Made by a program: the position numbers and the translations under genes. Shown here piece after piece: positions 8,249-14,468 of a DNA stretch of 34,034 nt (the stretch's first letter is position 1; each line of letters begins with the position of its first letter). The DNA is from Acidobacteriota bacterium (GTDB lineage Bacteria; Acidobacteriota; Thermoanaerobaculia; Multivoradales; Multivoraceae): positions 8,848 to 42,881 of the forward strand of contig WTGL01000021.1 of assembly GCA_011523565.1 (NCBI GenBank). The letters are read 5' to 3'. The notes below the pieces were generated by a model. The model was not told the DNA's origin. It did no database searches and saw only the letters and a program-made list of their open reading frames with translations.

Positions 8249-8327
8249 GTAGGCGATCACATGGACTAAGACGCGAAACCGCGCCAGAACCTGGATCGGG
8301 TGAGTGTGAGGGGCGCCTTGAACGCGA

Positions 8328-8355
8328 GAGAGCGCAGGCATGAGCCTGCGCTCTC
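8328..8355. repeat. Perfect 12-bp hairpin with ATGA tetraloop
   Basis: GAGAGCGCAGGC (8328-8339) pairs perfectly with GCCTGCGCTCTC (8344-8355) around the loop ATGA. It lies about 80 bases upstream of the comM start. It also lies downstream of the 29-codon gene on the same strand, so it could terminate that transcript or structure the comM leader. There is no T-tract on either side. Confidence 0.5.
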
Positions 8356-8449
8356 GGATTGTCCCCGGCCTGAGTGGATGCGTTTTCGCGGTGGGCGTTC
8401 GGCGCCCGCTGGGCCTCGCCTCGCTCTCGTTGGCCTCGGCGCGGTCGGA

Positions 8450-8507
8450 CCGGATCAGCGATCCGGCGGACGCTCGGGCTCTTCAGGCGACGGTCGAGCG
8501 GCCGGAT
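8450..8507 (-). promoter_or_regulatory. Two overlapping, mutually exclusive hairpins downstream of the 29-codon gene
   Basis: Hairpin A has arms 8461-8467 plus 8471-8476 (ATCCGGC, CGCTCG) pairing with 8495-8507 (CGAGCG, GCCGGAT); a three-base bulge interrupts one side. Hairpin B pairs CCGGATC (8450-8456) with GATCCGG (8460-8466). The two share 8461-8466 and cannot form together. Hairpin A starts 14 bases past the mini-gene stop on the - strand. This is an attenuator- or terminator-like arrangement; function is inferred. Confidence 0.35.
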
Positions 8508-8520
8508 GTCGTTCGTCCAC

Positions 8521-8610
8521 TCAGGCTGCGGACTTGGCGGCCCCCGGCTTGTCTTCCCGGGCGGTCAGCCTCGGGATGGCCGGGGGCGGGAGATGGCCCG
8601 GCGGAGTCAT
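8521..8610 (-). CDS. Putative 29-residue peptide of unknown function
   Basis: This short gene would be missed by usual length cut-offs. It starts with ATG at 8610 and ends in TGA. The peptide begins MTPPGHLPPPAIPRL and ends REDKPGAAKSAA. It is proline-rich at the front, charged in the middle and alanine-rich at the end, with no cysteine and no membrane segment. Support comes from the signals around it. An anti-SD-complementary AAAGGAGG (8615-8622) sits four bases before the ATG, much stronger than most sites in this window. A promoter with perfect TTGACA lies at the correct distance upstream, and hairpins follow the stop. I do not recognise a family. It could be a regulatory leader peptide, a modified-peptide precursor, or a chance frame beside a non-coding RNA. 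Confidence 0.5.
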   Translation of the reverse strand: MTPPGHLPPPAIPRLTAREDKPGAAKSAA

Positions 8611-8639
8611 GGTGCCTCCTTTCACTGAACGCTGGATAC

Positions 8640-8668
8640 ACCGTAGGAGCGGAGGTTGACTCTGTCAA
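8640..8668 (-). promoter_or_regulatory. Promoter for the 29-codon gene
   Basis: On the - strand, TTGACA (8663-8668), a 17-base spacer and TACGGT (8640-8645, retaining the first two and last consensus positions). A start near 8633 leaves a leader of roughly 20 bases that carries the strong ribosome binding site. Confidence 0.5.
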
Positions 8669-8669
8669 G

Positions 8670-8687
8670 CGTCCGACCGGTCGGACG
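8670..8687. promoter_or_regulatory. 18-bp perfect palindrome, likely operator
   Basis: CGTCCGACCGGTCGGACG is fully self-complementary. It lies one base upstream of the -35 box of the leftward promoter and about 22 bases upstream of a rightward -10 box. The half-site GGTCGGAC occurs again at 8443-8450. Palindromes with a GACCGGTC core are typical of TetR-family dimers, but no regulator gene is adjacent, so the binding protein is unknown. Confidence 0.5.
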
Positions 8688-8715: not shown

Positions 8716-8760
8716 CGTGTCCAGGAATCGTGTCGATCAATCGCGTCGACCCACTGGGTG

Positions 8761-8794
8761 CCATCCGTACGGCCGATGACGGCCGTACGGATGG
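8761..8794. repeat. Perfect 14-bp inverted repeat
   Basis: CCATCCGTACGGCC (8761-8774) and GGCCGTACGGATGG (8781-8794) are exact complements around the loop GATGAC. It is the first of two tandem hairpins in the region just before the acyltransferase gene, and probably in its leader RNA. Confidence 0.7.
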
Positions 8795-8798
8795 TTCA

Positions 8799-8823
8799 CG
8801 GGTGGCGCGGAACGCGCCACCCG
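8799..8823. repeat. Perfect 11-bp inverted repeat with GAA loop
   Basis: CGGGTGGCGCG (8799-8809) pairs with CGCGCCACCCG (8813-8823). It is four bases downstream of the previous hairpin. The candidate GTG start at 8802 lies inside the left arm and would be sequestered when the stem forms. Confidence 0.65.
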
Positions 8824-10650: not shown

Positions 10651-11772
10651 ATGCGCATCGGCTTCGATGTCGCCAAGGTCTTCGGGCCGCGCGACGGCAT
10701 AGCCAGCTACACGTCGAGCCTGCTGGAGGTGCTGGCGACTCGGGCGGAGCAGGGCGGCGAGTTCTCGCTGCATCTCTACGCCGGCGACGTCGAGACCGGA
10801 CCGCGCGACTGGGATCGGGCTCTGGGCCATCTGCCGGCGAGCGCGATCCCTCATCCCGGTCGTCACCCCGATCAGGACGAGCTCGACCTCTTCCACACGA
10901 CGTCGTTCACCGACACCGGTTTCTTCGACGGTCCGGTCCTGTTCACGGTCCACGATCTGACGTTCCTTACCCACCCCGAGCACCACCGTTCAGTCAATCG
11001 CGCCCATTGCCTGCGATCGACCCTGCGCGCCATCTGGCGGGACGCGACGCTGGCGGTCGATTCGCAGGCGACGGCGGCCGAGGTACGTCGCTGGTTCCAC
11101 GTGCCGCCCGAGCGGATGCGGGTGGTCTATCCGGCAGCGTCGCCGGTGTTCGTCGTACTGGAGGGCGGAGAGCTGGCTGGAGCGGAGCAGCGACTCACCA
11201 GTCGCTTCGGGCTGAACGGTCCGTTCGTGCTGACGGTCGGCACGCTCGAGCCGCGCAAGAACGTTGCCCGGCTGATCGAGGCGTACGCCGGCCTCGACCC
11301 GGATCGGCGGCGCAACACGCCTCTGGTGCTGGTGGGTGACGGGGGCTGGAAGCCGGAGGCCGTCTTCGCCGGGGAGTGGCCCGACTTCGTGCGGCGTCTC
11401 GGCCGGGTCGACGAGGCGGATCTCGTGGCTCTGTACAACGCGGCGTCGGTCGTTGCTTATCCGTCCCTGGTCGAGGGATTCGGCCTGCCCGTCGTGGAGG
11501 CGATGGCGTGTGGTACGCCGGTGTTGACATCGAACGCCTCCTCCCTGGCCGAGGTGGCGGGCGACGCCGCGGTGTGCGTCGACCCGCTCGACGTCGATGC
11601 GATTCGCGGCGGTCTGGAGGCCTTGCTCGGCGATCCGTCGCTGCGCCGCCGGTGCCGCGAAGCGGGCTTTCGGCGCGCCGCCGGGTTCTCGTGGGAGAAG
11701 ACGGCGGACCAGGTGATCGGCATCTACCGGGAGCGCGCGGCTGCCGCGCCGGAAGGCACCGCGGGAGGGTGA
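10651..11772 (+). CDS. GT4-family glycosyltransferase (module copy 1)
   Basis: This 373-residue GT-B enzyme of the GT4 type has an N-terminal Rossmann-like acceptor domain (GFDVAKVFGPRDGIASYTSS), a central strand VHDLTFLTHPEH, and the donor-domain opening VLTVGTLEPRKNVARLIEAY. The E-x7-E motif is EGFGLPVVEA. GT4 enzymes use nucleotide-sugars with retention of configuration to build LPS, O-antigen or exopolysaccharide chains at the cytoplasmic membrane face. It has no signal peptide. It starts four bases after the small helical protein. Its closest visible relative is the enzyme at 12124-13227, with roughly 60% of residues identical by eye. The sugar and acceptor cannot be told from sequence. 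Confidence 0.88.
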   Translation: MRIGFDVAKVFGPRDGIASYTSSLLEVLATRAEQGGEFSLHLYAGDVETGPRDWDRALGHLPASAIPHPGRHPDQDELDLFHTTSFTDTGFFDGPVLFTVHDLTFLTHPEHHRSVNRAHCLRSTLRAIWRDATLAVDSQATAAEVRRWFHVPPERMRVVYPAASPVFVVLEGGELAGAEQRLTSRFGLNGPFVLTVGTLEPRKNVARLIEAYAGLDPDRRRNTPLVLVGDGGWKPEAVFAGEWPDFVRRLGRVDEADLVALYNAASVVAYPSLVEGFGLPVVEAMACGTPVLTSNASSLAEVAGDAAVCVDPLDVDAIRGGLEALLGDPSLRRRCREAGFRRAAGFSWEKTADQVIGIYRERAAAAPEGTAGG

Positions 11773-11788: not shown

Positions 11789-12118
11789 ATGCGGCGGGTG
11801 ACCCGGCTCCTGGAGTTGCTTCGGCCCCTGGTCGTCCTGCTTGGACGTGGCACCCGATCAGCCGCGGCCCGGCCGTTGCGGGCGGTCCTGCGCCGGGCAA
11901 TCGGCAGCGAGCGCTATGAACGGCTGCGCCTTGGCGTCTGGGTCCGAACGAAGCAGGCCGTGAGGATCGATCCGCTGCACGCCGACATCCTTCCGCTGAT
12001 CGAGCAACTCGAGGGCGAGGGTTGCCTGATGGCCGGCGCTGCCCCGAAGCTGCGGTCCGTAGCCCTGGGCATTCGGGCCGAGACGAGAACGGAAGCGCGG
12101 GCTTCGAGGCGGGGCTGA
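11789..12118 (+). CDS. Small helical protein preceding GT4 (module copy 2)
   Basis: This 109-residue protein has a hydrophobic and strongly basic N-terminal half (LLELLRPLVVLL, then many arginines). Its C-terminal block (ADILPLIEQLEGEGCL, LRSVALGIRAE) aligns without gaps to the one in the protein at 10278-10646: about 17 of 35 positions are identical. The N-terminal halves of the two are unrelated: copy 1 has a clear membrane anchor, while copy 2 looks like an amphipathic or membrane-associated helix. Spacing is 16 bases from the preceding glycosyltransferase and five bases to the following one, so all are one transcription unit. No family is recognised. Confidence 0.65.
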   Translation: MRRVTRLLELLRPLVVLLGRGTRSAAARPLRAVLRRAIGSERYERLRLGVWVRTKQAVRIDPLHADILPLIEQLEGEGCLMAGAAPKLRSVALGIRAETRTEARASRRG

Positions 12119-12123
12119 CAGGC

Positions 12124-13227
12124 ATGCGCGTCGGTTTCGACGTGAGCAAGATCTTCGGCCCCCGGGACGGCGTGGCCCGCTACTCGGTCAGTCTTCTGCA
12201 GGCGCTCGCCGAGGAGGCGGAGGAGCGCGACGGCACGCCGGCTCTCCATCTCTACTCCCTGGGCGCGGAGGCGGACTCGGCCGCCTGGAGGGCCCTGCTG
12301 GATGAACTCCCGGGAAACGTACGGAAGGGACCCGGTCGCTGGCCGCGCCGGCGCGACCTCGACGTCTTCCACATCCCGTCGTTTTCGGATCCTGCCTGCT
12401 TCGACGGCCCGGTCGTCTTCACGATCCACGATCTGACATTCCTGACCCACCCTGAGTTCCACGTACCGGACAACCGGAATCAGTGCCTGCTCGGCACTCT
12501 GCGGGCGGTCTCGCGGCAGGCCACGATTCTGGCCGTTTCGGAAGCGACCGCGAAGGAAGTGCGCCAGTGGTTCGTGCTGCCTGAGGATCGGCTGCGGGTT
12601 GTCTACGAAGCGGCGTCGCCGGTCTTCGTGGCCTTCGAGGGCTCGGAGTTGGCAGCCGCCCGGGAATGTCTGGCGACACGCTTCGGGCTCGAGGGTCGGT
12701 TCGTGCTCTCGGTCGGCTCGCTCGAGCCGCGCAAGAACATCGCCCGTCTGGTCGAGGCCTACGCCGGGCTCGACCAGAAGCTGCGGGAGAGTACGCCCCT
12801 GGTGCTCGTGGGCGGCAGCGGTTGGAAGGAGGATGCCGCGTTCGGCGGCGCCTGGCCGGGTTTCGTGCGGCGCCTGGGTGCTGTCGAGGAGGAGGACCTG
12901 ATCGCCCTGTACAACGTTGCCTCGGTGGTGGCATATCCGTCCCTGGTCGAGGGGTTCGGCCTGCCGGTGGTGGAGGCGATGGCCTGCGGCACGCCCGTGC
13001 TGACATCGAACACGTCTTCGCTCGCCGAGGTTGGCGGAGACGCCGCACTGTGCGTCGATCCGACCAACGTGGCGGCGATTCGCCGCGGCCTGGAAGCGCT
13101 GCTCGGCGACGCGGCCCTGCGGCGCCACTATCGGCGGGCCGGTTTCGTTCGCGCAGCCGGGTTCTCCTGGCGGACGGCGGCGAAGGAAGTGATCGAGATC
13201 TACGGCGGGATGGTGGGCGCGGGCTGA
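12124..13227 (+). CDS. GT4-family glycosyltransferase (module copy 2)
   Basis: This 367-residue enzyme is a paralogue of the one at 10651-11772 along its entire length: GFDVSKIFGPRDGVARYS, IHDLTFLTHPEFH, VLSVGSLEPRKNIARLVEAY, E-x7-E in EGFGLPVVEA, and ends in AAGFSW. The same retaining nucleotide-sugar transfer chemistry is expected. ATG 12124 was chosen because it gives the same N-terminus as copy 1 (MRVGFDV against MRIGFDV); a longer frame open from 12022 overlaps the small protein and adds unconserved residues. Its stop overlaps the next start by one base (TGATG). Many synonymous differences from copy 1 show that the duplication is old and not an assembly artefact. Confidence 0.88.
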   Translation: MRVGFDVSKIFGPRDGVARYSVSLLQALAEEAEERDGTPALHLYSLGAEADSAAWRALLDELPGNVRKGPGRWPRRRDLDVFHIPSFSDPACFDGPVVFTIHDLTFLTHPEFHVPDNRNQCLLGTLRAVSRQATILAVSEATAKEVRQWFVLPEDRLRVVYEAASPVFVAFEGSELAAARECLATRFGLEGRFVLSVGSLEPRKNIARLVEAYAGLDQKLRESTPLVLVGGSGWKEDAAFGGAWPGFVRRLGAVEEEDLIALYNVASVVAYPSLVEGFGLPVVEAMACGTPVLTSNTSSLAEVGGDAALCVDPTNVAAIRRGLEALLGDAALRRHYRRAGFVRAAGFSWRTAAKEVIEIYGGMVGAG

Positions 13228-14468
13228 TGAACGAGACCGCAGTAGGGCCGCGGTCGATCGGCGTCGTCGCCTATGAGATGGAGGGGGAACCGACCGGGGT
13301 CGGCCGCTACACCGAGGAACTCCTGACAGCGCTTTGTCGAACACCTCGGGCGGAAGGGTGGAAGTTGCGGCTGTTCTTCAAGGGCTGTCGTTTCGAACAC
13401 CCGCTGTGGAGCGAGCCGGCCGCCGGGGACTGCCCCGTGGAGCCGATCTTCGACTGCCGGCCGGGTGCCCATCCGATTCTCTGGGAGCAGTTCCGGTTGC
13501 CCAGACTGCTGCGGAACGAGCAACTGGACGTTCTCTTCTCGCCGGGCTACAGCCTGCCGCGCACCCCGGGTCGGCCATCCCTCGTGACGATTCACGATCT
13601 CTCGTTCGAGCACCTGCCGGGGGACTTCGGCTTCCGTGAGTTGTGGCGGCGGCGCTACCTTGCGCGCAGCGCCGCGCGGGCGGCGACCAGGGTGCTGACC
13701 GACACCAGGCGCACGGCAGCCGATCTGCGGCAACGATACGGCCTGCCGGCGGATCGTGTCGCCGTTGTTCCGCTGGGCGTGTCGCCCCGCTTCGCCGCAG
13801 CCCGCGAGTCGAGAGGTACGGAAAGGCGGGAGCGGGACCGGGTGCTGGCGGAACTGGGTGTTCGGCGGCCGTATCTGCTGGTTCTGGGCTCGATCCTTCC
13901 GCGCCGGCGGCTCGACCTGGTGCTGCGTGCTCTGGGCCGCCTCCAGCGCGAGCCGGGTCCGGGCGGCTCGGGATCGGATGCCGGGCCCGTGAACCTGGAT
14001 CACCTCCGCCTGGTCATCGCGGGCCGAAACCAATTGCCTCGTCGTGGAGAGCTCGACCGGCTGATCCGGGCCGGCGACAGGAAGGAGCGGGTGGTCCGTC
14101 TCGGCTACGTGGACGACGATCTGCTGCCGCCGCTGTACGCGCGGGCCTGGGGAACGGTCTACGTGTCGGACTACGAGGGATACGGTCTGCCTCCTCTCGA
14201 GTCGCTCGCGGCCGGGACTCCCGTGCTCGTCTCGGACGCGCCGGCCCTGGCGGAGTTGTGGCCCGAGTATCCGCTGCGATGCGCCAGGCTTGAGATCGAC
14301 GCGTTGACGGAGGGTCTAAGGCGGCTGCTGCTGGATGACGAAGCCCGCCGGTTGGCGAGGGGGGAAGGACCCGAGCGTGTGCGGTCCCTGACCTGGGACC
14401 GTGCCGCTGAGCGCTTCGCCGATCAGGTGGAGGCGGTCTGGCGCATGGCGCGGGAGAAGGGGCCGTGA
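13227..14468 (+). CDS. GT4-family glycosyltransferase, third in cluster
   Basis: This 413-residue GT-B enzyme has IGVVAYEMEGEPTGVGRYTE at the start, the IHDLSFEHLP strand, donor-domain entry YLLVLGSILPRRRLDLVLRA and E-x7-E in EGYGLPPLES. It is more distant from the two duplicated enzymes than they are from each other, and no small helical protein precedes it. The insertion around GPGGSGSDAGPVNLDHL is a low-complexity loop. It shares a one-base overlap with the preceding gene and a four-base GTGA overlap with the following one, so translation is probably coupled. It likely adds a further sugar to the same glycan; specificity is unknown. Confidence 0.87.
   Translation: MNETAVGPRSIGVVAYEMEGEPTGVGRYTEELLTALCRTPRAEGWKLRLFFKGCRFEHPLWSEPAAGDCPVEPIFDCRPGAHPILWEQFRLPRLLRNEQLDVLFSPGYSLPRTPGRPSLVTIHDLSFEHLPGDFGFRELWRRRYLARSAARAATRVLTDTRRTAADLRQRYGLPADRVAVVPLGVSPRFAAARESRGTERRERDRVLAELGVRRPYLLVLGSILPRRRLDLVLRALGRLQREPGPGGSGSDAGPVNLDHLRLVIAGRNQLPRRGELDRLIRAGDRKERVVRLGYVDDDLLPPLYARAWGTVYVSDYEGYGLPPLESLAAGTPVLVSDAPALAELWPEYPLRCARLEIDALTEGLRRLLLDDEARRLARGEGPERVRSLTWDRAAERFADQVEAVWRMAREKGP

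Follow-up and report, generated by a model that had tools for sequence, protein, structure and literature searches.

A structured RNA family of Acidobacteriota with a possible 5' cassette for loading and pausing ribosomes

The 29-codon open reading frame (ORF) that lies upstream of comM in the analysed window, by which we mean the whole stretch of 34,034 nucleotides from the genome of an Acidobacteriota bacterium, was found to be the 5' part of a larger conserved product, which is, as judged from its sequence conservation, a structured RNA. Comparison of its members argues that this family of structured RNAs in Acidobacteriota is real and well supported; the family is undescribed, being without a match in Rfam or Pfam. 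The family itself, its signals, the fold of the RNA in the home genus, the fixed spacing and a peptide that is no longer conserved once the fifth to tenth codon has been passed were all evident from the sequences. The reading that we prefer, and to which we give about an even chance, is that an independently transcribed RNA of approximately 310 nt carries a 5' cassette for loading and pausing ribosomes, with the peptide as a by-product.

All of the signals that belong to this unit were located on the minus strand. An operator-like inverted repeat, GTCCGACCGGTCGGAC, which is a perfect 16-base palindrome (8671-8686), lies directly 5' of the -35 box TTGACA (8663-8668), which was invariant in the 21 genomes of the genus and which appeared as TTGAC[A/G] at the equivalent position in most of the homologues. 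After a 17-base spacer, it is followed by the -10 box TACGGT (8640-8645), which fits the pattern TANNNT; T1, A2 and T6 were kept across the genus and the middle varied, and TANNNT was present 16-18 bases after the -35 box in nine of the 15 distant homologues. The Shine-Dalgarno (SD) sequence AAAGGAGG (8615-8622) was predicted to pair partially with codons 2-3 (CTCC), and a GGAG/CUCC hairpin around the AUG was found in most of the predicted folds. The GGAGG was invariant in the genus and in nearly all of the distant homologues, being weaker at loci L232 and L234. The ORF (8521-8610) starts with the ATG at 8610 and ends with the TGA at 8523-8521. A previous sequence-only reading had described the palindrome, TTGACA with its 17-base spacer, SD, ATG, stop and hairpins as an ordered set that was unlikely to surround a random frame; direct reading confirmed the order, and the palindrome, -35 box, SD, ATG, open frame and both hairpins were present in 21/21 genomes of the genus. 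The palindrome core TCCGACCGGTCGG was likewise found at its position in all 21 genomes, none of which had more than three further copies of it. The idea that these sites form a regulon was rejected, as the further sites were merely scattered and the three that were read had no common context. Related inverted repeats were present at the same place in two genomes of the same family (G023 and G022), and palindrome-like inverted repeats were not seen at the homologous loci in other families.

Inside the ORF, there is a hairpin of 8-9 bp, H2 (GCCCCCGGC...GCCGGGGGC, 8540-8587), which had been overlooked in the earlier reading; it starts at ORF nucleotide 24 and its stem was invariant in the 21 genomes. 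It is followed by a branched 3' domain (8360-8534), whose long-range closing helix, GUCC/GCCUGAGUGGA with UCCACUCAGGC/GGAC, contains the stop codon and in which compensatory changes were detected in helix 4 (alignment columns 114, 115, 118 and 119). The hairpin that was previously placed at 8507-8461 is present, but it is not a separate one, belonging instead to the larger branched fold of 8534-8360. The terminal 12-bp hairpin GAGAGCGCAGGC/GCCTGCGCTCTC (8328-8355), of which the stem was invariant and the loop variable in the 21 genomes, is a probable terminator, although it has no U run. With the SD/start hairpin, these parts make up a deduced small RNA of about 310 nt (8327-8636), both ends of which are predicted from the sequence.

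The fold of 8636-8327 on the minus strand had a z-score of -5.64, with none of the 100 shuffles being as stable. The opposite strand also folded well (z = -3.81), and the minus strand is favoured as the RNA strand because G-U pairs were kept. In the genus alignment, 94.9% of the cells of the 93-pair structure were standard pairs, a percentage that is favoured by the structure having been derived from folds of the same sequences. Two-sided changes affected 13 pairs and 48 cells compared with 8.4 and 18.1 in the shuffles, and 0/500 shuffles reached these values; the count of pair types, unlike the percentage paired and the two-sided changes, was not above every shuffle. Thus, the secondary structure is conserved with compensatory changes, as was seen in the covariation within the genus and in the H2 arms, which covary across families. 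The search of Rfam gave no match above the gathering threshold for either the window or the homologues, and only sub-threshold chance matches were returned.

A DNA search of relatives located the locus in 21/21 genomes of the genus, always upstream of comM; it was not found in 39 other genomes, apart from unrelated weak matches, and the weak blastn matches in G037, G045 and G055 were rejected as unrelated or coding DNA. The home genus comprises sponge-type Acidobacteriota of the "Ca. Multivorans" group, with the sponge origin being deduced from names. On the comM tree, the palindrome had 0.35 substitutions per site, the -35 box 0.29, the terminal hairpin 0.56, codons 1-8 0.58 and codons 9-29 0.83, and the flanking spacers, both upstream and downstream, had 2.8-3.0. 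Codons 4-6 were invariant at the nucleotide level within the genus. A scan of the whole collection with the genus-level pattern returned the genus members and a single chance match, L062 from Bryobacterales, which was rejected because it lies inside another reading frame and has no promoter.

Outside the home genus, the cassette was found in 15 further genomes from 11 genera, which gives a total of 36 genomes. A sequence-only model of the RNA that was free of any codon constraint found two of them, a full-length copy in the same family (G023) and a 5' relative in another family (G066); both encode MTPPDH and have the promoter, the SD, ATG-ACN-CCN-CCN-GAC-CAY and the H2 hairpin at the same place. 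Thirteen more were obtained by pattern searches (G022, G031, G036, G043, G052, G179, G187, G375, G050, G058, G060, G049 and G051), of which G179, G187 and G375 are the three homologue genomes from outside the class. Codons 2-4 were included in most of the search patterns, and therefore their invariance outside G023 and G066 was partly imposed. A pattern in which codons 5-6 were left free found G050, G058 and G060; its forward matches clearly exceeded the reversed-pattern control, the many chance matches within genes were not counted, and among the matches that also had the context of the promoter or of H2, codon 5 was D or G without exception. Little can be concluded from absence elsewhere, as the patterns miss divergent copies; the viral contigs that were searched had no match. 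An R1 match in G094 (L137) was rejected since it appears to lie in a coding sequence, and so were the pattern matches L166, L167, L251 and L235, which are within other reading frames without a promoter. In the case of L170 (G241, near 1509, minus strand), an Hfq-like gene has MGPPDQ after AGGAGG; this was attributed to chance, since single matches were about as numerous in the reversed-pattern controls.

All 36 genomes encode M-[S/T]-P-P-[D/G] at the start of the frame, and hence a PPD or PPG motif. Codon 2 was ACN, UCU or AGU (Thr/Ser), codon 3 was CCA or CCG, codon 4 was CCG or CCU and codon 5 was GAC, GAU or GGC (Asp/Gly), and codon 6 was variable (His, Gln, Lys, Tyr or Pro). In the 18 representative loci, the hairpin always started at ORF nucleotide 23-26, and the H2 arms changed together: GCCCCCGG/CCGGGGGC, GCCCUCG/CGAGGGC, CUUCGAGUU/GAAUUCGAAG and CCCUGAGCU/AGCUCAGGG. 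CCC at ORF nucleotides 25-27, which was not part of the search patterns up to and including the one with codons 5-6 free, was present in 10 of the 13 distant loci (chance of about 1e-12). The ORF of L196 encodes MSPPDYS and stops at codon 8, yet the CCC and the hairpin follow; therefore, the constraint on the CCC is one on the RNA and marks the hairpin. U-tailed terminators were found at the equivalent place in L139, L168, L169 and L190. Taken from these signals, an independent transcription unit is predicted from the promoter in the genus and in most of the homologues and from the U-tails in several of them. A covariance model of the 3' domain of the genus found no homologue outside it, and many of the distant copies still fold into a branched domain at the 3' position. 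When the distant copies were aligned together with MAFFT, the 3' arms of H2 were misaligned because its loop varies in length.

In the preferred reading, the strong SD and the AUG would load a ribosome, which M-[S/T]-P-P-[D/G] would slow at the di-proline, a pause that EF-P would normally relieve. In previous work, PP(D) was reported as the PP(X) motif that pauses ribosomes most, the list also contained PP(G), and SP(P) was among the strongest of the XP(P) type; relative to the P site, the downstream edge of the paused ribosome was measured at about +17 (PMC6238534). Moreover, in the absence of EF-P, ribosomes were shown to pause at PPG when the A site holds Gly-tRNA and the P site holds peptidyl-tRNA-Pro (PMC4140641). 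A ribosome whose P site is occupied by Pro3 or Pro4 (ORF nucleotide 7 or 10) would therefore have its edge near nucleotides 23-27, which is where H2 starts, and a hairpin at nucleotide 23-26 would abut the leading edge of the paused ribosome. Whether the ribosome is held or is released through H2 would then decide how the RNA folds, how stable it is or how available it is; in the home genus, a released ribosome would go on as far as the stop codon, which lies in the helix that closes the 3' domain. From these features, we infer transcription, translation, pausing, EF-P dependence and a regulatory output. The EF-P gene is encoded in the genome, and in normal cells the factor may abolish the pause. 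Codons 2-3 often pair with the SD, and this pairing could account for their conservation even if they had no part in pausing; with the 3' domain being unrecognisable outside the genus, an output that is shared across the family is unproven. More tentatively, and with a probability that we place well under one half, the RNA might be a widespread standalone "ribosome-parking" RNA with a near-obligatory early pause and a hairpin at the leading edge of the ribosome, which would sense EF-P activity or ribosome status and act in trans through its folded 3' part.

Several other explanations of the locus were weighed. That the signals surround a random frame by chance is next to inconceivable. As a -10 box, TACGGT is weak, and a simple promoter/terminator pattern scanner reported neither a promoter nor a terminator at the locus, its silence being due to TACGGT fitting just TA...T and to the terminal hairpin having no U run; chance is refuted by the conservation in 21 genomes and by the 15 additional ones in which the signals recur at a fixed spacing. 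An ordinary gene for a functional peptide of 29-33 residues, as was originally proposed, is improbable. In its favour, the frame is 29 or 33 codons long in the genus and is open and free of indels in 21/21 genomes, and the changes in its first ten codons are biased to the third position (0/3/11 by codon position). Against it, purifying selection was not seen along the whole frame: the substitutions by codon position were 9/29/28 for the ORF versus 15/4/106 for comM, and omega, the synonymous/nonsynonymous comparison that had been suggested as a check, was 0.56 versus 0.087, which argues against an ordinary gene. The column-permutation test of protein conservation gave p = 0.13 when all of the codons were included, p = 0.04 over codons 2-10 and p = 0.58 over codons 11-28, and thus the 29-aa peptide is without protein-level selection after about codon 10; any importance of the peptide would therefore be confined to its start. 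The homologous ORFs have 7-41 codons with unrelated tails, with some of them stopping after 7, 9, 10 or 12 residues, and beyond the genus just residues 1-5 are kept. Additionally, the structure is kept for about 190 nt beyond the stop. The peptide does lack a known family, as the sequence-only reading had stated, with Pfam giving no match and the literature search on the peptide strings finding nothing. What stood of the proposed gene was its own expression unit and the conserved start of its frame. The finding of only a non-coding RNA, which had been named as the one that would speak against a gene, was nearly reached in that a structured RNA is conserved, but the start signals and codons 1-5 have been retained as well.

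A leader peptide with an attenuator of comM is very unlikely, even though, in the genus, comM follows the RNA closely on the same strand, the two being separated by a terminator-like hairpin. The comM gene has a promoter-like element of its own, GCGTCTTAGTCCAT (8260-8274, minus strand), which is conserved, is not accompanied by an SD and lies directly before the GTG start at 8260. A similar CGTCT..(T)AG element, also without an SD, was found just 5' of the comM start in several further families of the order, in which this RNA is missing upstream; therefore, comM probably has its own start signals and its own transcript, perhaps a leaderless one. At the distant copies, whose flanking genes were read by eye, no comM was recognised alongside or directly downstream, and the spacer between the hairpin and comM evolves fast and carries insertions. 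It is harder to set aside a start that works only as RNA, which we regard as possible, if rather doubtful: the SD and AUG would recruit a ribosome or 30S subunit solely to shield the 5' end or to set the fold, or else the C-rich UCUCCACCGG would pair with target mRNAs, and the di-proline codons would be conserved as RNA. The pairing of codons 2-3 with the SD in most of the folds, the invariance of codons 4-6 at the nucleotide level in the genus and the variability of codon 6 are consistent with it. On the other hand, Ser is encoded by both UCU and AGU, codon 4 is both CCG and CCU and codon 5 is restricted to Asp or Gly, which fits selection on amino acids, and beyond the genus the nucleotide conservation stops at codon 5, with H2 excepted.

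The candidate ribosome-pausing RNA that we prefer resembles the arrest-peptide leaders SecM, MifM, VemP and mgtL in having a short ORF and a putative pause that is tied to an adjacent RNA structure. These leaders, of which mgtL is proline-rich, act in cis upstream of the gene that they regulate, and the arrest usually occurs far from the start. Unlike them, the RNA described here has its own probable terminator, and its candidate pause is at codons 3-5. The dual-function sRNAs SgrS/SgrT and VcdRP of Vibrio cholerae (PMC8672173) are also alike in being independent transcripts of a few hundred nt with a short ORF after a strong ribosome binding site, a structured part and a terminator. However, the small protein that they encode is conserved and functional, and the segment with which they base-pair is defined, whereas here just the first five residues are kept, the ORF varies from 7 to 41 codons and the RNA is a candidate. 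The PPD/PPG core motif is common to the EF-P-dependent PPX pauses (PMC4140641, PMC6238534), but the known cases are in ordinary proteins, whereas here the motif has a fixed position at the start of a very short ORF, and a hairpin follows one ribosome footprint downstream. Acido-1 and other structured RNA candidates from Acidobacteria (PMC2864571) are non-coding RNA candidates from the same phylum; Acido-1 (RF01686), like every Rfam family, does not match the window or the homologues. If our reading is right, a poorly studied phylum has an RNA family that was missed by both annotation and Rfam, and the first five codons of its ORF are conserved and the protein is not. EF-P-dependent pausing in a dedicated standalone RNA would then become testable. 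It would also be a caution that well-signalled short ORFs can belong to RNAs and not to small proteins.

Some minor observations were made around the locus. The occurrence of the CGTCT..AG start in several families of the order suggests a conserved leaderless comM mRNA. At L009 (G013), insertions of tens of bases were found between the terminal hairpin and comM, as was also the case in G007 and G015, with the RNA itself being free of them. At 8756-8800, a 45-base stretch with the inverted repeat cgtacggccgtcatcggccgtacgg is a dispersed REP-like element that has many copies in the genomes of the genus. On the plus strand, 10651-11772 is a glycosyltransferase gene (Glycos_transf_1), and at about 11914-13344 there is a reverse-frame ORF that resembles the reverse-frame ORF of the glycosyltransferase gene, which perhaps indicates a second, similar gene.
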